From the NCBI GenBank assembly GCA_951813395.1, contig OX638356.1:2554501-2618500 (forward strand): DNA of 64,000 nucleotides, written 5' to 3'. The notes below the pieces were generated by a model, which saw only the letters and a list, made by a program, of their open reading frames with translations, was not told the origin of the DNA and did not search any database. The position numbers and the translations under genes were made by a program. Shown here one piece after another: positions 56,258 through 64,000 of the stretch (positions within the stretch are counted from its first letter, which is position 1; every line of letters starts with the position of its first letter). The DNA is from Longimicrobiales bacterium. Lineage in GTDB: Bacteria; Gemmatimonadota; Gemmatimonadetes; Longimicrobiales; Gaopeijiaceae.

Positions 56258-56971
56258 ATGAGCAGGTCCAGGCCGAACGAAACACTGCAGGGGCACATCG
56301 ACGCCCTCGGCGACGAGAAGTTCGGCCGGGTGTTCAATGCGGTTTGGTCTCATTGGTGCGAAGCGAAGGTGATGTACGAGGAGTACAAAGATCTGTTCGG
56401 CACCCAGGAGGATTGCGACCTCTTGAACGCGGTCGCGCCCCAGTTTTTCAGGTATGTCCACCAAGTGTTCTGGCAGGATCTTGTCCTCCATGTGACCCGC
56501 CTAACCGACAGGAGTCGGGAGGCACTGAGCGTTCAGAGCCTCGAGAAGTGCTTGACGAGAGAGGACGACAGGCGGCTACGAACGCAGGTGCAGACACACC
56601 GGGAGAACGCAGTAGAGGCCGCGAAGCCTCTAGTCGACTGGAGGAATCGACATATCGCACATCGGAGCCAATCGCTTGTCATCGGAACCGCTTCCACGCC
56701 ACTGGCACCGGTGCGGCCAGTCGACTGCAAAGAGGTTTTGGGTCACGTACTCTCGGCGATCAATGCCATCGAACGGGCACGCATGGATGGCACTACACCG
56801 GATGACGTCGTCGCCCATCCGTCCGCCAGAGGGCTCCTGGCGCAACTCAAGGGACTGGTGGAGGGGGTTCAGTTCGCCGCATCAGCTGTTGACCCCGAGT
56901 ACCTGAAAACGCTTGATCCAGACAAGGCGAGGCAGTTCCTACGGACGGTGCGCCGAACACAGCGCATATAG
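56258..56971 (+). CDS. AbiU2-like HEPN-domain protein
   Basis: A 237-residue, helical cytosolic protein with a strong AGAGGAGAAGAAG site. It resembles the HEPN/AbiU2 group: YKDLFGTQEDCDLLNAVAPQ, FFRYVHQVFWQDLVLHVTRL, TDRSREALSVQSLEKCL, and the HEPN motif R129-NRHIA-H135 (R-x5-H, or R-x3-H from R131) in LVDWRNRHIAHRSQ. HEPN proteins with this motif are usually RNases of phage-defence or toxin systems, but no partner antitoxin (such as a nucleotidyltransferase) is present. An IS3-type relic lies 12 bases downstream and a decayed ATPase upstream, so it may be the survivor of a defence locus. Confidence 0.65.
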   Translation: MSRSRPNETLQGHIDALGDEKFGRVFNAVWSHWCEAKVMYEEYKDLFGTQEDCDLLNAVAPQFFRYVHQVFWQDLVLHVTRLTDRSREALSVQSLEKCLTREDDRRLRTQVQTHRENAVEAAKPLVDWRNRHIAHRSQSLVIGTASTPLAPVRPVDCKEVLGHVLSAINAIERARMDGTTPDDVVAHPSARGLLAQLKGLVEGVQFAASAVDPEYLKTLDPDKARQFLRTVRRTQRI

Positions 56972-57037
56972 TGCCCCCGATTTCCCTGGACAGTAGTTTA
57001 GCAACCTTTCCGGGGTCCAACGGAGAGGAGGCACGGG

Positions 57038-57400
57038 ATGTCTCGGAGTACGAAAGAGCAGGATTTGGCGAAGAGCCGCGGCCAGCCGGAGGGCCTGCCG
57101 AAGCGGTGGAGCGCGCAGCGGAAGGCAGAGGTGGTTTTGCGGCTGCTGCGGGGCGAGGACATCGGCGAGGTGAGCCGGGAGATTCGGGTTGCGCCGCCGG
57201 AGTTGGAGCGGTGGCGGCGGGAGTTCCTGGACGGTGGCCAGCAAGGGCTGAAGAAGAAGAACCGGCCGGGAGGCGAGCTGATGCGGACCCGGGCGAAGCT
57301 GGGAGAGATGACGATGCGGGTCGAGTTGCAGGCGGAGCTTCTCGAAAAAAGGGGGTTCGGGGACGAGCTGCGGAAGCTCTTGAGGCGCTTGGACGGGTGA
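57038..57400 (+). CDS. IS3-family OrfA transposase subunit
   Basis: A 120-residue protein. An N-terminal helix-turn-helix (WSAQRKAEVVLRLLRGEDIG, EVSREIRVAPPELERWRREF) is followed by a leucine-zipper-like helix (LGEMTMRVELQAELLEKRGF), as in IS3-type OrfA. AGGAGG precedes ATG 57038. The stop overlaps the orfB start (GTGA). Confidence 0.85.
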   Translation: MSRSTKEQDLAKSRGQPEGLPKRWSAQRKAEVVLRLLRGEDIGEVSREIRVAPPELERWRREFLDGGQQGLKKKNRPGGELMRTRAKLGEMTMRVELQAELLEKRGFGDELRKLLRRLDG

Positions 57401-57924
57401 GTCCGGCGACGAACCGTGCCTACCCGCTGACGATGGTGTGTGAGACCTGGCGGGTCGCACGCTCGAGCGTGTATGCGCTGCGAGCGCAACAGGGCGGGCC
57501 AGTGACGCCCGATCGCCGGCAGCCCGGGAAGCGGGGCCCGAAGACGGCACTGAGCGACGAGGAGCTTCCGCAGGAGGTCTGGACGGTGCTGAAGGCGAGT
57601 CCGTTCCTCGGCGAGGGCCACCGGAAGGTGAAGGCGCGGCTTGCGGCCAAGGGGATCCGGGTGGGCAAGAACCGAGTGCTCCGCCTGATGCGGGTGAACG
57701 GGCTCCTGGCGCCGGTGCGGCGGGGGCATCCCCACGGAGACCGGAGCCACAGCGGCCGGATCCGCACCGTGTGCATCTATCTGCACGACTTCGATACCCT
57801 CGAGGAGGCCAGAGAGGTGATCGGGGCCTTCGTCGAGCGCTACAACAACGGCTGGCTTTTCCAGCGGCACGGGTACATGACCCCGGCCCGGGCCCGCGAG
57901 AAGCTCAGCCGGAGGGCGGCCTGA
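57397..57924 (+). pseudogene. IS3-family OrfB with catalytic core deleted
   Basis: The frame starts at GTG 57397. The first about 115 residues are typical OrfB N-terminal sequence (RAYPLTMVCETWRVARSSVY, GKRGPKTALSDEELPQEV, GEGHRKVKARLAAKGIRVGK, VNGLLAPVRRGHPHGDRSH). It then jumps at about 57765 to the C-terminal end (EEAREVIGAFVERYNNGWLF, YMTPARAREKLSRRAA). The region with the D and D of the DDE triad is missing, although the frame stays open. The product cannot catalyse transposition. Confidence 0.85.
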
Positions 57925-57998: not shown

Positions 57999-58133
57999 AT
58001 GTCCCGCATCCGCATCAAGCTCTACGGCTCCGCTATCGAGACGGAGACGGCCCCGTCCGCCCTTCCAGACCCGCCCCTGTTCGACGTCTCGCATGTGGTC
58101 CAGCGGGCACGGGAGAGGCCGACAGCGCTGTGA
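57999..58133 (+). CDS. Small protein coupled to the DenV-like gene
   Basis: A 44-residue frame from ATG 57999, with AGGAGAGG 7 bases upstream. Sequence MSRIRIKLYGSAIETETAPS ... SHVVQRARERPTAL; no domain. Its stop overlaps the next start (GTGA), so it may be a leader or a small partner. Confidence 0.4.
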   Translation: MSRIRIKLYGSAIETETAPSALPDPPLFDVSHVVQRARERPTAL

Positions 58134-58498
58134 GAATGTGGATGGTGGATCCGGCGGTGCTGTGCCGTCAGCATCTTTTGGGAGAACATGTCGAGCTTCA
58201 TATGATCGTCGGCTCCGTCCGGAAGGGCCGGGATCTGACGTGGATGCTGGATCGAGGCCTCTTGGAACCGAGCCGGGTAGAGGAACGCCACGCCGCGCTG
58301 GTCACTGAAATGCGGCGGCGGGGATATGGGCACCGGAGTCCGATTTGCCCGACCGTCTGTTACGCGGTGAAGGGGTTGTACGGCGTCACCGGCGAGCAGC
58401 TTGTAGACCCCAGGCGCAGCGTCAAGGAATTGGCGGAGCGGTGCGCCCCCTGCCGGCATCGAATCAACCTGACCGACCAGAGAAGGGAAACCCCTTGA
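58130..58498 (+). CDS. DenV-like (pyrimidine-dimer glycosylase-type) protein
   Basis: A 122-residue protein from GTG 58130 (ATG 58136 is also possible). The N-terminal half resembles T4 endonuclease V/Pyr_excise proteins: VDPAVLCRQHLLGEHVELHM, IVGSVRKGRDLTWMLDRGLL, ERHAALVTEMRRRGYGHRSP. In T4 DenV the N-terminal Thr2 is the catalytic nucleophile and Glu23 is essential; E16/E19 of QHLLGEHVELH are candidates here, and Thr2 is absent, so the enzyme may act differently. The C-terminal part has two cysteines in ERCAPCRHRIN. The identification is by resemblance. A mobile-element origin is likely given the IS relic just upstream. Confidence 0.5.
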   Translation: MRMWMVDPAVLCRQHLLGEHVELHMIVGSVRKGRDLTWMLDRGLLEPSRVEERHAALVTEMRRRGYGHRSPICPTVCYAVKGLYGVTGEQLVDPRRSVKELAERCAPCRHRINLTDQRRETP

Positions 58499-58637: not shown

Positions 58638-59879
58638 ATGAGAATAGCTGTCGTCGGAACCGGTATCTCGGGACTCGGAGCGGCTTGGCTGCTCGCCCCG
58701 AAACATGACGTGCACGTCTTCGAGCGCGAGACGCGAATCGGAGGCCACACCCACACTCACCGGGTCGCCGGCCCCCGGGGTTCCGTCGCGGTCGACTCCG
58801 GGTTCATCGTCTACAACGAGGAGACCTATCCCCTTTTGGCGACCCTCTTTGCGGCGCTCGGCGTACGCTCACAACCGATTGACATGTCGTTCTCTTTCGA
58901 GTGCGAGCGTTGCCGTGTGGTGTACAGCGGCCTGGGCGTCAAGGGGGTCTTCGCCGATCCGCGCAGTGCGTTTCGACCGGGATTCCTGAGATTCCTGGCG
59001 CAGATCCACCAATTCCACGCCGCTGGCCGGCGGGGCGGCGCCACCTGGGATGGTCGGACGTTGCGTGATCTCGTCGCACGGGCCGGCTCGGAGGTGCTCG
59101 GTCGCCACTACGCGTATCCCCTGGCTTCGGCGCTGTGGTCGACAGGGATTCCCTCGATCATGCAGTTTCCAGCTGGCATGTTCGTGGACTTCTTCCGTGG
59201 GCACAGACTCTTCCAGCTGCGCGGGCGGCTCCAGTGGCGGTCGATCCCCGGGGGAAGCAGGACCTACGTGGAAGCGATGCTGCGTCGGCTCGATGGGCGC
59301 GTTCACACAGGCATCCCGGTCAGTTCGGTGGCTCGCCGAGGGACGGCTTGCCGCCTGCACTTCGCGAACGGCACCAGTCAGGAGTTCGACCGGGTCATCC
59401 TGGCCACGCACGCGGACGAGGCCCTCGCCCTACTGCGGGAACCCTCCGACGCCGAACGGGAACTGCTGGGCGCATGGCGGTACGCGACCAACGACACCTG
59501 GGTCCACTCCGACCCCGCGTACCTGCCCTCGCGTGCAGCGGCGCACGCCTCCTGGAATTACCATGTAGGCGACTGTCGCAATCCCTCCCCGGTCACGACC
59601 ATGACCTACAACCTCAACCGTCTGCAGCGCCTTGACCACTCAACTCCCTGGCTCGTCACCCTGAACCCACCCCGACCCCCGGACCGCGTCCACGATCGCG
59701 TCACCTACGCCCACCCGGTGTACACGGTGGCGTCGGCTACCACCCAGTCGGCCATTTCCGCGCTCAACGGCCGGCGCGGCACCTACTTCTGCGGCGCCTA
59801 CCTCGGCTTCGGCTTCCACGAGGACGGGTTTCGATCGGCGGTCGAGGCTGCCGAACAACTCGGCGCGAGGCTCGAATGA
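58638..59879 (+). CDS. FAD-dependent oxidoreductase of the CFA-type lipid operon
   Basis: A 413-residue flavoprotein of the amine-oxidase/desaturase type. The N-terminal dinucleotide-binding motif is clear (MRIAVVGTGISGLGAAWLL, G-x-G-x-x-G) with E at the end of beta2 (HVFERETRIGGH). The remaining FAD region includes DSGFIVYNEETYP, FAAGMFVDFF-like segments (SIMQFPAGMFVDFFRGHRLF), GGSRTYVEAMLRRLDGRV and the C-terminal TYFCGAYLGFGFHEDGFRSA. Homologs sit beside DUF1365 and CFA synthase genes in many bacteria, including the Rhodobacter furan-fatty-acid gene set; oxidation of an acyl chain is a plausible role. ATG 58638 follows tccggga. Its stop overlaps the next start (ATGA). Confidence 0.85.
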   Translation: MRIAVVGTGISGLGAAWLLAPKHDVHVFERETRIGGHTHTHRVAGPRGSVAVDSGFIVYNEETYPLLATLFAALGVRSQPIDMSFSFECERCRVVYSGLGVKGVFADPRSAFRPGFLRFLAQIHQFHAAGRRGGATWDGRTLRDLVARAGSEVLGRHYAYPLASALWSTGIPSIMQFPAGMFVDFFRGHRLFQLRGRLQWRSIPGGSRTYVEAMLRRLDGRVHTGIPVSSVARRGTACRLHFANGTSQEFDRVILATHADEALALLREPSDAERELLGAWRYATNDTWVHSDPAYLPSRAAAHASWNYHVGDCRNPSPVTTMTYNLNRLQRLDHSTPWLVTLNPPRPPDRVHDRVTYAHPVYTVASATTQSAISALNGRRGTYFCGAYLGFGFHEDGFRSAVEAAEQLGARLE

Positions 59880-60679
59880 GCAATCCGCTTCGCTCCGGCC
59901 TCTACATGGGCACGGTCCGGCACCGGCGCCGCGCGCCCCGCGCGAACTCGTTCCGGTACGGGGTCTACCAGTTGCTCCTGGACCTTTCCGAACTCGCGGC
60001 GCTCGATCGCGAGATAGGGTTCTTCGGCTACAACCGCGCCGGACTCATCTCGTTTCACGACCGGGACCACATGGGGGGCACGGGCGAACCGGTGCGCGAC
60101 AAGCTGGCTCGCTGGCTGCGTACTCAGGGACGCGACCTGGGTGGATCCCGGGTCATGCTGCTCACGAACCCGCGCGTCCTCGGCTACGTGTTCAACCCGG
60201 TGTCGTACTTCTTCTGCCTGGACGCTGCGGGCGGGCTCCGCTTCACGGTGGCGGAGGTCTTCAACACCTTCGGCGAGGCATACTGCTACCTGCTCGACGG
60301 CAGCGATCCGGTGGGTGGACAGGCGGTCCGTTCGCGGGTGGACAAGCGGTTCCACGTCTCGCCGTTCATGCAGATCGAAGGGGTCCGCTACGAATGGATC
60401 GTGACTCCGCCCGGCGACCGTCTCACCATCCACATCGACGAGTTCGACGGAGACGAGAAGTACTTCGACGCGACGCTGAACCTGGTGCGCCGTCCCCTCA
60501 CGGCCGCAACGCTCGCCGGCGCGATGCTCCGTTACCCGCACCTGACGGCGCGGACGATCTTCCTGATTCACTGGCAGGCCGCGAAGCTGTGGGCCAAGCG
60601 GGTTCCGTTCTTTCGCAAGCCCGAGCCGCCGGACAATGGGCTTGGGGGTTGGCAGCCGGGGAGGAGGGGGATGCGATGA
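59876..60679 (+). CDS. DUF1365 family protein
   Basis: A 267-residue protein with the family's usual segments: LYMGTVRHRRRAPRANSFRY, GLISFHDRDHMGGTGEPVRD, VMLLTNPRVLGYVFNPVSYF, FCLDAAGGLRFTVAEVFNTF, KRFHVSPFMQIEGVRYEWIV and FLIHWQAAKLWAKRVPFFRK. Function is unestablished; the family is tied to the CFA-type lipid operons. No signal peptide. Both ends overlap neighbours by 4 bases, which indicates translational coupling. Confidence 0.9.
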   Translation: MSNPLRSGLYMGTVRHRRRAPRANSFRYGVYQLLLDLSELAALDREIGFFGYNRAGLISFHDRDHMGGTGEPVRDKLARWLRTQGRDLGGSRVMLLTNPRVLGYVFNPVSYFFCLDAAGGLRFTVAEVFNTFGEAYCYLLDGSDPVGGQAVRSRVDKRFHVSPFMQIEGVRYEWIVTPPGDRLTIHIDEFDGDEKYFDATLNLVRRPLTAATLAGAMLRYPHLTARTIFLIHWQAAKLWAKRVPFFRKPEPPDNGLGGWQPGRRGMR

Positions 60680-61935
60680 GCGGCACGCCGCGGCGGCAGT
60701 TGAACCGTGCGGGACTGGCTCCCGGCATGATGGACCGCGTCGGGCGCGCGCTCATTCTCGGTTCCCTGCGCCGCCTTAAGCAGGGGGTTCTGCGGATCCG
60801 TACCCCCGACGGCGCCGCGTATCGATTCGGAGGACTCCAGCCTGGGCCCGAGGCCACGATCAGCGTGCACCATCCCCGTTTCTTCCGGCGAATGCTGGCG
60901 GACGGAGAGGTCGGGGCGGGGGAGGCGTACATTTGGGGTGACTGGTCGGCGGATTCGGCGATGGACGCTGTGCGGCTAGGCATTCTGAACCGCCGCTTTC
61001 TGAGGCCTATGGTGCCCCTGTTGTGGCCTGCGGCGGTGGCGGCGTGGATGGCGCACAAGGTCCGATCGAACACTGTGTCGGGATCACGCCGAAACATCCA
61101 TGATCATTACGACTTGGGTAATGATTTCTTCGCCCTCTTTCTCGATCCGTCGATGACGTACTCGTGCGCATACTTCGACGAGGAGCGGCTGGCGGCGGAT
61201 GCAGAGGTGGACACTCAGGCCCTGCAGCGCGCCCAGTTGGCGAAGTACCGGCTCCTGGCGACGAAGGCCGGCCTCCGCCCCGGTTCGCATGTCCTGGAGA
61301 TCGGCTGTGGGTGGGGCGGGTTCGCCGAGGTCGCGGCGTCGGAGTTCGGGTGCCGGGTGACCGGGGTGACGATTTCGCGCGAGCAGGCGGCCTACGCGCG
61401 TGAACGCTTGGCCCGCGCGGGACTCGCGGACAGGGTCTCGATCGAGCTGATGGATTATCGCGAGATCACGGGTGTTTACGATGCCGTCGTATCGATCGAG
61501 ATGCTCGAAGCCGTAGGTCACCGATTCCTTCCGGCCTACTTCCGCAAGTGTGACGAGGTGCTGGCGTCCGGCGGGCGGGCGGTCATCCAGGTGATCACGA
61601 TCCCGGACAACCGCTACTTCCGCTACCGGCTACGCCCCGACTACATCCAGCGCTTTATCTTCCCTGGTGCGCACCTTCCTTCGCTGGGGGCACTGACCCG
61701 CGCGCTGCGCCCGACGGCTCTCCGAATGCGGGACCGGGAGGATCTCGCCGCTCACTATGCCCTCACGCTGGCCATGTGGAGACAGCGGTTGCTGGAACAG
61801 CGCAATGCCCTGTTCGACCTGGGGTTCGACGAGGCGTTCCTGCGGAGGTGGGAGTTCTATTTCGCGTACTGCGAGGCAGCGTTCCGAACCCGCTATGTAG
61901 CCGACTGGCAACTCGTGCTGGAACGGAGAGGATGA
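60676..61935 (+). CDS. Cyclopropane-fatty-acyl-phospholipid synthase family enzyme
   Basis: A 419-residue enzyme from ATG 60676, overlapping the DUF1365 stop. The family layout is clear: an N-terminal SCP2-like lipid-binding region (HHPRFFRRMLADGEVGAGEA, YIWGDW), then the CFA core with NIHDHYDLGNDFFALFLD and PSMTYSCAYF, SAM-binding VLEIGCGWGGFAEVAASEFG, CRVTGVTISREQAAYARERL, and the bicarbonate/active-site region YDAVVSIEMLEAVGHRFLPA and RYFRYRLRPDYIQRFIFPGA. These enzymes methylate an acyl double bond in membrane lipid using S-adenosylmethionine; the product can be a cyclopropane or a methyl branch. Which one cannot be read from the sequence. Confidence 0.93.
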   Translation: MSGTPRRQLNRAGLAPGMMDRVGRALILGSLRRLKQGVLRIRTPDGAAYRFGGLQPGPEATISVHHPRFFRRMLADGEVGAGEAYIWGDWSADSAMDAVRLGILNRRFLRPMVPLLWPAAVAAWMAHKVRSNTVSGSRRNIHDHYDLGNDFFALFLDPSMTYSCAYFDEERLAADAEVDTQALQRAQLAKYRLLATKAGLRPGSHVLEIGCGWGGFAEVAASEFGCRVTGVTISREQAAYARERLARAGLADRVSIELMDYREITGVYDAVVSIEMLEAVGHRFLPAYFRKCDEVLASGGRAVIQVITIPDNRYFRYRLRPDYIQRFIFPGAHLPSLGALTRALRPTALRMRDREDLAAHYALTLAMWRQRLLEQRNALFDLGFDEAFLRRWEFYFAYCEAAFRTRYVADWQLVLERRG

Positions 61936-61936
61936 C

Positions 61937-62725
61937 ATGAGCGCTCCATTCGCGGTCGGGATGGCGGCCGTTGCGATCATACCGGTCATGGTACTGCTGT
62001 GGTACAGGCAACTGCGCACCCGCGAGGCCGATGCAGTGGACTTGGCGTGGACGGTGGGCCTGGGTGTCGCGGCGGTGTTCTACGCGGCGGCGGTGCCGCT
62101 GGGGGTAGGGTGGCGGCGCTGGATGGTGGCCGCGATGGCGGGGTTGTGGTCGCTGCGCCTGGCCGCGTACCTGCTCGGACGGGTCAGGTCGCCGGGCGAG
62201 GATGGGCGCTATCGGGATCTGCGGGTGAAGTGGGGACGCAGTGCGCCGGTGAAATTCTTCGTCTTCTTTCAGGTCCAGGCTGCGCTGGTGATCGTGCTTT
62301 CGGTGCACTTCCTGCTCGCCATGCGGTCGCCGGATCCGTCGCTGCGCGCGATGGACCTTGTGGGGGTGGCGATCTGGTTTGTTTCACTGGTCGGCGAGTC
62401 GGTTGCGGACCGTCAATTGCACCGCTTCCGGGCCACGCCCGGCAACGAGCGACGGGTCTGCCGGACGGGCCTGTGGCGGTACTCGCGGCATCCCAACTAC
62501 TTCTTCGAGTGGCTGCACTGGCTGGCGTACGTGCCTGTCGCGTATGGCCACGCCCCCCTTTGGGCCATCCTCTTCGCGCCGGTCTTGCTGTTGGTCTCGA
62601 TCCGGTTCGTGACCGGCATCCCGCCCATCGAGCGGCGGTCGGTCGAGCGGCGAGGCGAGGAATACCGCCGCTACCAGCGAACCACGAGCGCGTTCATTCC
62701 CTGGTTCCCGCGGCGCGACCCATGA
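61937..62725 (+). CDS. DUF1295 family membrane protein (steroid 5-alpha-reductase-like)
   Basis: A 262-residue inner-membrane protein with about six hydrophobic spans (VGMAAVAIIPVMVLLWY, LGVAAVFYAAAVPLGVG, FFVFFQVQAALVIVLSVHF, LVGVAIWFVSLVGESVA, PLWAILFAPVLLLVSIRFV). The C-terminal signature is typical of DUF1295: DRQLHRFRATPGNERRVCRT, GLWRYSRHPNYFFEWLHWLA, GIPPIERRSVERRGEEYRRY. Steroid 5-alpha-reductase relatives reduce conjugated double bonds with NADPH. Acting on the modified acyl chain is inference from the operon. Start ATG is one base after the CFA stop. Confidence 0.9.
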   Translation: MSAPFAVGMAAVAIIPVMVLLWYRQLRTREADAVDLAWTVGLGVAAVFYAAAVPLGVGWRRWMVAAMAGLWSLRLAAYLLGRVRSPGEDGRYRDLRVKWGRSAPVKFFVFFQVQAALVIVLSVHFLLAMRSPDPSLRAMDLVGVAIWFVSLVGESVADRQLHRFRATPGNERRVCRTGLWRYSRHPNYFFEWLHWLAYVPVAYGHAPLWAILFAPVLLLVSIRFVTGIPPIERRSVERRGEEYRRYQRTTSAFIPWFPRRDP

Positions 62726-63762
62726 GCGTTGCCGAAGCGGCCGTGCGGGGCGCCCTGGCGGCCGCCGAGTCGGGCTGGGTCCCCGACTTCGCCGCCCGGG
62801 CCGGGATCCGGGCCCTGCTGCGGGGACGGCTGCGTTCCCTGGCCAGCGGACCGCCCCTCGACGAGGCTGCCCTTCGCACCGGCCCCATCGCTCCAGCCCC
62901 ACGCGAGGCGAACGAGCAGCACTACGAGGTCCCCGCTGCGTTCTTCGAACTGGTCCTGGGACCCTGGAACAAGTACTCCTGCTGCCTGTGGCCGGATGGC
63001 GGCCGCGAATCTACCCTCGCCGAAGCCGAACTTGCCATGCTCGATGTTACTTGCGCCCGTGCCGGCCTCTCCGATGGACAGGACATCCTCGATCTCGGCT
63101 GCGGCTGGGGCGCGCTCACCCTCTTCGCCGCCGAGCGCTATCCGGCCAGCCGCATCGTCGCGGTTTCCCACTCGGCGTCGCAACGCCGCCATATCGAGGC
63201 ACGGGCGCGACGGCGGGGACTGGACAACGTTCTTGTCATCACGGCGGACGTCTCAGACCTCCATTTCGCGCGCGAGCAATTCGACCGCGTAGTCTCGGTC
63301 GAGATGTTCGAGCACATGAACAACTATGCCCTGCTTGTGAAAGGAATCACGAGTTGGATGCGGCCCCGGGGCCGGCTCTTCGTTCACGTCTTCTGCCACC
63401 ACGCCCGCGCCTACCGCTTCTCACGCGTGGGCCCGGGCGACTGGATGGCGCGAGAGTTCTTTACCGGCGGCCTCATGCCGAGTTCGACGCTGGTGCCGAA
63501 GTTTCGCGGCGACCTCGAGCCCGAGGACGACTGGTTCGTGCCGGGAACGCACTACGCGCACACCTCGGAAGCCTGGCTGGCCAACCTGGACAGGGAGCGC
63601 GACGAGGTGGCATCGATCTTTGCCGACACCTATGGTTCCGCGTCCTCCGACCGCTGGGTGCAGCGCTGGCGACTGTTCTTCCTGGCCGTGGCCGAGACCT
63701 TCGCCTACAGGGGCGGTCGGGAGTGGGGGGTGTCACACCATCTACTCAGAAAGCCTGTCTGA
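62722..63762 (+). CDS. Second CFA-like SAM-dependent methyltransferase
   Basis: A 346-residue enzyme from ATG 62722, overlapping the DUF1295 stop. It is shorter than the first CFA-type enzyme: the N-terminal lipid domain is reduced to a helical segment (about 1-60). The core has NEQHYEVPAAFFELVLG, PWNKYSCCLWPDG, SAM-binding ILDLGCGWGALTLFAAERYP, VVSVEMFEHMNNYALLVKGI and LFVHVFCHHARAYRFSRVG. It resembles the group often annotated CFA synthase/coclaurine N-methyltransferase-like. Two distinct methyltransferases in one operon suggest two methylation steps or two substrates. Confidence 0.9.
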   Translation: MSVAEAAVRGALAAAESGWVPDFAARAGIRALLRGRLRSLASGPPLDEAALRTGPIAPAPREANEQHYEVPAAFFELVLGPWNKYSCCLWPDGGRESTLAEAELAMLDVTCARAGLSDGQDILDLGCGWGALTLFAAERYPASRIVAVSHSASQRRHIEARARRRGLDNVLVITADVSDLHFAREQFDRVVSVEMFEHMNNYALLVKGITSWMRPRGRLFVHVFCHHARAYRFSRVGPGDWMAREFFTGGLMPSSTLVPKFRGDLEPEDDWFVPGTHYAHTSEAWLANLDRERDEVASIFADTYGSASSDRWVQRWRLFFLAVAETFAYRGGREWGVSHHLLRKPV

Positions 63763-64000
63763 TGATAGAGACAGCGGCACACGACCACATTGATCCCGAT
63801 TCTCTCGCTCCGACGGACCGGATCGACTTCCTGCGCAGCTATGCGTTCGTGGGCGTGCATGCCCTGGCGTTCGCTTTCCTGTTCACCGGCGTGAGTATCC
63901 CGGCGCTGCTCGCCTGCCTGATCACCTTCTGGGTGCGCCTCTTCGGCATCACCGCCGGTTATCACCGCTACTTCGCGCACCGGTCGTTCAAGACGAGCCG
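63762..64000 (+). CDS. Fatty acid desaturase (partial)
   Basis: ATG 63762 shares its first base with the preceding stop. About 79 codons are present before the edge. Two hydrophobic helices (FVGVHALAFAFLFTGVSIP, ALLACLITFWVRLFGITAG) lead to the first histidine box HRYFAH (H-x4-H) followed by RSFKTS, typical of acyl-CoA/acyl-lipid desaturases of the Delta9 type, which need two further His boxes beyond the edge. It would make the double bond used by the CFA-type enzymes. Confidence 0.88.
   Translation, partial: MIETAAHDHIDPDSLAPTDRIDFLRSYAFVGVHALAFAFLFTGVSIPALLACLITFWVRLFGITAGYHRYFAHRSFKTS

Follow-up and report, generated by a model that had tools for sequence, protein, structure and literature searches.

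The reactions catalyzed by UfaM, UfaD, UfaO and FufM in the synthesis of furan fatty acids (FuFAs) were demonstrated with proteins of Rhodobacter sphaeroides and Rhodopseudomonas palustris (Lemke 2020, PMC7380195). UfaM, which depends on S-adenosylmethionine (SAM), converts cis-vaccenate to 11Me-12t-18:1, and the flavoprotein UfaD forms a conjugated diene after this methylation. UfaO is a DUF1365 protein, and the ring oxygen is derived from O2 (PMC7380195). The genes ufaM, ufaD and ufaO suffice for 9M5-FuFA, to which FufM adds a second ring methyl, yielding 9D5-FuFA (PMC7380195). Here we describe an operon from a 64,000-nucleotide stretch of the chromosome of a Longimicrobiales bacterium (positions 2554501–2618500), further referred to as the window. 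It contains homologues of all four genes along with genes for a DUF1295 membrane protein and a fatty acid desaturase. Based on homology, gene order and co-occurrence, the operon very probably encodes a self-contained pathway leading from membrane phospholipid acyl chains to methylated furan fatty acids, most likely the dimethyl form. Coordinates below are window positions unless they carry an L or G label.

The six genes and their homologues

The genes lie on the + strand at the right end of the window (58638–64000) with almost no intergenic space, and all six were assigned to families by Pfam. The first encodes a UfaD-like flavoprotein of 413 amino acids (58638–59879, Amino_oxidase PF01593), predicted to desaturate the methylated acyl chain, and the second, a UfaO-like DUF1365 protein of 267 amino acids (59876–60679, PF07103, E=1.4e-78), the predicted O2-dependent furan former. 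They are followed by genes for a UfaM-like SAM-dependent fatty acyl methyltransferase of 419 amino acids (60676–61935, CMAS PF02353), a DUF1295 integral membrane protein of 262 amino acids resembling steroid 5-alpha-reductases and ICMT (61937–62725), and a FufM-like SAM-dependent methyltransferase of 346 amino acids predicted to carry out the second ring methylation (62722–63762, CMAS PF02353). The two methyltransferases, both of the cyclopropane fatty acid (CFA) synthase type, are referred to as CFA1 and CFA2, respectively. The last gene encodes a desaturase of 309 amino acids (FA_desaturase PF00487, E=8.9e-21); its 5' part occupies positions 63762–64000, and the gene continues to approximately 64691 (full gene L007:9762–10691). 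The first two junctions are 4-base overlaps; the CFA1 and DUF1295 genes are separated by 1 base, the DUF1295 gene overlaps CFA2 by 4 bases, and CFA2 shares 1 base with the desaturase gene (TGATG). Thus, the six-gene operon with overlapping or 1-base junctions proposed in the preliminary description is borne out by the coordinates, by Pfam and by conservation of the locus in 20 relatives (see below).

For comparison we used the genome of R. palustris strain XCP, found via the reaction-centre L sequence (99% identity over that protein) of PDB 6z5r, presumably an R. palustris structure. A search of this genome revealed ufaD, ufaO and ufaM in one cluster, along with an RPA3082-like CFA gene and fufM. 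Since XCP is not strain CGA009, they were matched to RPA2571–RPA2569, RPA3082 and RPA0924, respectively, by the published gene arrangement and family counts. The first three genes of the operon stand in the same order as ufaD-ufaO-ufaM. The flavoprotein is 40% identical to UfaD (423 columns), and the DUF1365 protein is 42% identical to UfaO (236 columns). CFA1 is closer to UfaM (41%, 289 bits) than to the RPA3082-like protein (36%, 203 bits). Actinobacterial 10-methyl stearate reductases, encoded beside the methyltransferase with which they form the BfaB/BfaA pair, are of the FAD_binding_4 type; judged by Pfam family only, the flavoprotein considered here is of the Amino_oxidase type and differs from them. 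No solved structure was similar to the DUF1365 protein by sequence, and its single-sequence structure model, having a predicted local distance difference test score (pLDDT) of 40, was not used.

A maximum-likelihood tree of 61 sequences was built for CFA-type enzymes. CFA1 clusters with UfaM and other enzymes linked to ufaDO (support 100/98), away from the RPA3082-like enzymes and Escherichia coli Cfa. In the alignment, residues H240 and H266 of E. coli Cfa are replaced by A and Q in both CFA1 and UfaM, while the RPA3082-like enzyme retains both histidines. We further compared the sites C139, E239, H266, I268 and Y317, which we take to form the bicarbonate site of E. coli Cfa; the compared positions presumably bind bicarbonate or neighbour residues that do so. 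CFA1 has Q at position 266 and CFA2 has F at position 268, hence neither retains the complete Cfa-type set. Q is likewise found at the position of H266 in some plant cyclopropane synthases; therefore the A/Q residues mark the lineage of CFA1 rather than prove its reaction.

CFA2 is 46% identical to R. palustris FufM over 341 columns, that is, along the full length, and clusters with it in the same tree with support of 100/100. CFA2 is predicted to be a FufM-type methylase responsible for the second ring methyl. The possibility that CFA2 is a second UfaM was rejected, given 27% identity to UfaM and a separate branch on the tree.

The desaturase has the histidine boxes HRYFAH, HHRLHH and HNNHH and is 41% identical to the desaturase of a six-gene cluster from an Acinetobacter plasmid. 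It is one of two desaturases encoded in the genome, where the only match to the FabA/FabZ family is an LpxC-FabZ fusion (L190:2047–3333). Hence unsaturated chains probably originate from the two desaturases, that is, from aerobic desaturation, and the operon desaturase probably supplies the starting double bond. We found no published demonstration of its regiospecificity. Desaturation at delta-9, combined with the regiochemistry of UfaM, would be predicted to give furans whose acid arm has seven carbons, e.g. 7D5 or 7D7. If the enzyme does not act at delta-11, the ring may occupy a chain position other than that in the known product, which would be a possible novelty.

Conservation of the operon and the proposed pathway

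Two samples of genomes from the phylum were considered: 200 genomes for co-occurrence and, for synteny, 20 DUF1365-bearing genomes besides that of the window. The flavoprotein, DUF1365 and CFA1 genes occur together in all 20 relatives of the latter sample, and the same loci contain CFA2 in 18, the desaturase gene in 14 and the DUF1295 gene in 11 cases. The desaturase gene follows CFA2 in five close relatives and precedes the flavoprotein gene in nine others. This conserved neighbourhood argues that the operon is not a chance arrangement. In the larger sample, DUF1365 scored over the cut-off in 27 of 200 genomes. FufM-type genes were found in 23 genomes, all of them among these 27 and none among the 173 genomes without DUF1365 (Fisher p = 2e-26, a value that ignores shared ancestry). 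In one genome (G172) the FufM-type gene and the DUF1365 gene are separated by approximately 370 kb, and therefore the association is not explained by linkage alone.

The operon is patchily distributed in the window's own genus (5/15 sampled genomes), and the genus group stands apart from other operons of its family. CFA2 sits near proteobacterial sequences on the 61-sequence tree (97/82), whereas in the trees of flavoprotein/DUF1365 and of DUF1295 the window operon does not fall inside proteobacteria. Given this discordance, no donor of a horizontal transfer is claimed.

FufM-type genes were also found in 44 plasmid records, with identity of at least 46%; the next match had 31.6%. A plasmid of Acinetobacter (L196) carries all six gene types in the order desaturase-ufaD-ufaO-ufaM-DUF1295-fufM. 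Short fragments annotated as SAM methyltransferases are located beside ufaO in Rhizobium sp. CIAT894 (L037:11369–11524) and Azospirillum thermophilum (L040:8631–9035), possibly representing decayed or misannotated ufaM. On plasmid pRL12 of Rhizobium johnstonii (L197:4481–8442), genes for a flavoprotein, DUF1295 and a FufM-type protein are present; DUF1365 and ufaM are not annotated in this stretch and may be elsewhere in the genome.

Taken together, the similarity to UfaD, UfaO, UfaM and FufM, the tree, the synteny, the co-occurrence and the match to the six-gene Acinetobacter cluster make a dimethyl furan fatty acid operon the most likely interpretation. In the proposed pathway, the desaturase would introduce a cis double bond into a saturated chain; CFA1, acting as UfaM, would transfer a methyl group from SAM and move the double bond; the UfaD-type flavoprotein would add a second, conjugated double bond; and the UfaO-type DUF1365 protein would insert oxygen from O2 and close the furan ring. 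CFA2 would then add the second ring methyl in the manner of FufM, with DUF1295 as a putative accessory membrane enzyme. The resulting furan lipids may scavenge singlet oxygen and related oxidants, a role suggested by the R. sphaeroides work reviewed in PMC6852236.

The furan pathway was among the guesses of the preliminary description, and this part is upheld by the sequences, order and co-occurrence of the Ufa-type and FufM-type genes. Its loose wording, by which the methylated product is oxidised or reduced, is superseded, since the steps can be assigned to desaturation by UfaD and oxygenation by UfaO.

The role of DUF1295 and alternative explanations

The DUF1295 protein is 41% identical to the protein encoded just before fufM in R. 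palustris XCP, where the two genes overlap by 4 bases. Its Pfam matches are PF06966 (E=6e-66), Steroid_dh (E=5.5e-10) and ICMT (E=8e-4), and the best match in a PDB profile search was ICMT 4A2N (4e-5), with steroid reductase 7C83 at 0.21. As Pfam leans toward the steroid reductases and the PDB profiles toward ICMT, DUF1295 may be either a reductase or a methyltransferase. Its single-sequence structure model (pLDDT 53) was not used. We found no published demonstration of its reaction; among the papers searched that mention DUF1295, no title or opening of an abstract was concerned with its function. A deletion of RPA0923, the DUF1295 gene of R. palustris, is listed in Table 1 of PMC7380195, and no phenotype was found for it in the main text.

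DUF1295 could catalyse a step that the dimethyl branch of the furan pathway requires, rather than being an accessory enzyme. The gene is located immediately upstream of the FufM-type gene on the same strand in all 44 plasmid records, as well as in R. palustris. However, in seven operons of the phylum (L048, L051, L053, L056–L058, L061) CFA2 has no adjacent DUF1295 gene. Conversely, Phyllobacterium and Legionella lytica have DUF1295 together with ufaD-ufaO(-ufaM) genes but no FufM-type gene. In the 200-genome sample, close DUF1295 homologues were found in 34 genomes, 20 with DUF1365 and 14 without it, while no close DUF1295 is present in 7 of the 27 genomes with DUF1365. Thus, DUF1295 tracks the pathway yet is not confined to pathway genomes. 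Moreover, FufM produced 9D5 in vitro from liposomes that contained 9M5 (PMC7380195). We therefore consider the requirement for DUF1295 unlikely.

In two genomes, DUF1295 genes near ufaO (G172:C1:515615–516373 and G188:C11:23098–23856) contain one in-frame stop each, possibly due to decay or an assembly error.

A speculation based on chemistry, to which we give rather little credence, is that DUF1295 is an NADPH-dependent reductase closing a scavenging cycle. It arises from the relatedness of DUF1295 to steroid 5-alpha reductases, which reduce enones. Furan fatty acids oxidise to dioxoenes (review, PMC12595405). A furan fatty acid quenching singlet oxygen would open to an ene-dione, the substrate of DUF1295; reduction of its C=C bond would give a 1,4-diketone that recloses to the furan. 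If this is true, the operon would provide a rechargeable membrane antioxidant.

Several observations weigh against the assignment of a dimethyl furan pathway. When enzymes with solved structures were added to the tree, plant alkaloid N-methyltransferases (6gkv, 9we4) fell inside the FufM-type branch; hence the substrate of CFA2 does not follow from its sequence alone, and the assignment must be carried by context. Identity of 40–46% to the characterised family leaves room for altered specificity. Two relatives have the ufaD-ufaO-ufaM core without a FufM-type gene nearby. Finally, no homologue of an extracytoplasmic function (ECF) sigma factor or ChrR was found in the operon flanks searched. 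The preliminary description had suggested looking for such genes beyond the right edge of the window; none adjoins the operon, unlike several proteobacterial clusters, such as those of Rhizobium, Caballeronia and Phyllobacterium, which are adjoined by an ECF sigma/anti-sigma or ChrR pair. Control by sigmaE(ECF11)-ChrR is typical of proteobacterial systems and is not needed for the chemistry. Two weak Cupin_7 matches are present elsewhere in the genome.

The position of the plant enzymes leads to an alternative in which the pathway encoded by the first three genes ends with a monomethyl furan fatty acid and CFA2 methylates another lipid or an amine. CFA2 is indeed 39% identical to the plant coclaurine-type N-methyltransferase 6GKV. 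It is nevertheless nearer to R. palustris FufM, it belongs to the same operon as the core genes, and in the phylum such genes occur only together with DUF1365, even when unlinked, as in G172. This alternative is accordingly rather improbable.

The placement of the plant coclaurine-type enzymes within the bacterial FufM-type branch is worth separate mention, as it hints that plant alkaloid enzymes may come from a furan-lipid methylase family.

An operon for ordinary cyclopropane or methyl-branched fatty acids, in which the flavoprotein and the DUF1365 protein would do unrelated redox work, could be suspected from the CMAS family of both methyltransferases and the plant-like Q of CFA1, and from the reported additional presence of cyclopropane acids upon overexpression of Halomonas UfaM in E. 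coli (PMC12089945). Still, it is the least probable alternative: the placement of CFA1 in the UfaM clade, the loss of H240 and H266 as in UfaM and the ufaD-ufaO-ufaM synteny led us to reject cyclopropane synthesis, an outcome disfavoured at the sequence level, and the Pfam family of the flavoprotein argues against the methyl-branched variant.

A dimethyl furan fatty acid operon being preferred, the presence of two CFA-type enzymes no longer points to an undescribed product, as had been suggested, for the UfaM and FufM pair of R. palustris makes the known 9D5. The product of the operon probably differs from the known one in chain position at most, and the pathway is most likely a known one found in a new lineage rather than new chemistry.

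Flanking genes and comparison with known systems

A gene for a pyrimidine-dimer DNA glycosylase of the T4 endonuclease V type (58130–58498, + strand, Pyr_excise PF03013, E=2.4e-13) is located 139 bases 5' of the flavoprotein gene on the same strand and may be the first gene of the operon transcript. In relatives, no such gene was found at the operon. Photolyase genes are present in the plasmid clusters of Cupriavidus, Phyllobacterium, Legionella and Acinetobacter, which, along with the glycosylase, suggests a common light-damage theme. Downstream of the desaturase gene are a TonB-receptor-like gene and other unrelated genes. Further upstream of the operon, the region 56971–57924 contains remnants of IS3-like transposases (HTH_Tnp_1, HTH_21, rve_3) whose reading frames conflict, preceded by a gene for a HEPN AbiU2-type protein (56258–56971, PF18734, E=3e-15) from a family tied to phage abortive infection.

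If the assignment is correct, a complete dimethyl furan fatty acid pathway, biochemically known only from alphaproteobacteria, is now placed in another lineage. As a compact operon with its own desaturase, it could be a convenient cassette for production of antioxidant lipids. The tie of DUF1295 to the furan fatty acid pathway makes its role directly testable.

Among known systems, the singlet-oxygen regulon of Chlamydomonas is similar in that singlet oxygen co-induces genes for a DUF1365 and a DUF1295 protein along with two genes of the CFA type; it differs in belonging to a eukaryote, and a furan product is not reported in PMC4067076, where the regulon is described. The RSP1091–RSP1087 operon of R. 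sphaeroides, along with ufaM (RSP2144), was compared by description, not by sequence. It shares adjacent ufaD and ufaO genes and has its biochemistry shown (PMC7380195), whereas its ufaM is unlinked, it is controlled by sigmaE-ChrR and only a monomethyl product is described. In R. palustris, RPA2571-RPA2570-RPA2569 (ufaD-ufaO-ufaM) correspond to the first three genes of the operon and share their order, with 40–42% identity, and RPA0923-RPA0924 (DUF1295-fufM) are adjacent with a 4-base overlap, with 41% and 46% identity (strain XCP). The latter pair forms a separate locus unlinked to ufaDOM, whereas the window has all these genes plus the desaturase gene in one operon. The plasmid cluster of Acinetobacter sp. 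SH20PTE14 (L196:2759–8885) matches all six gene types with 29–46% identity, and differs in having the desaturase gene first rather than last and lipocalin and photolyase genes nearby.

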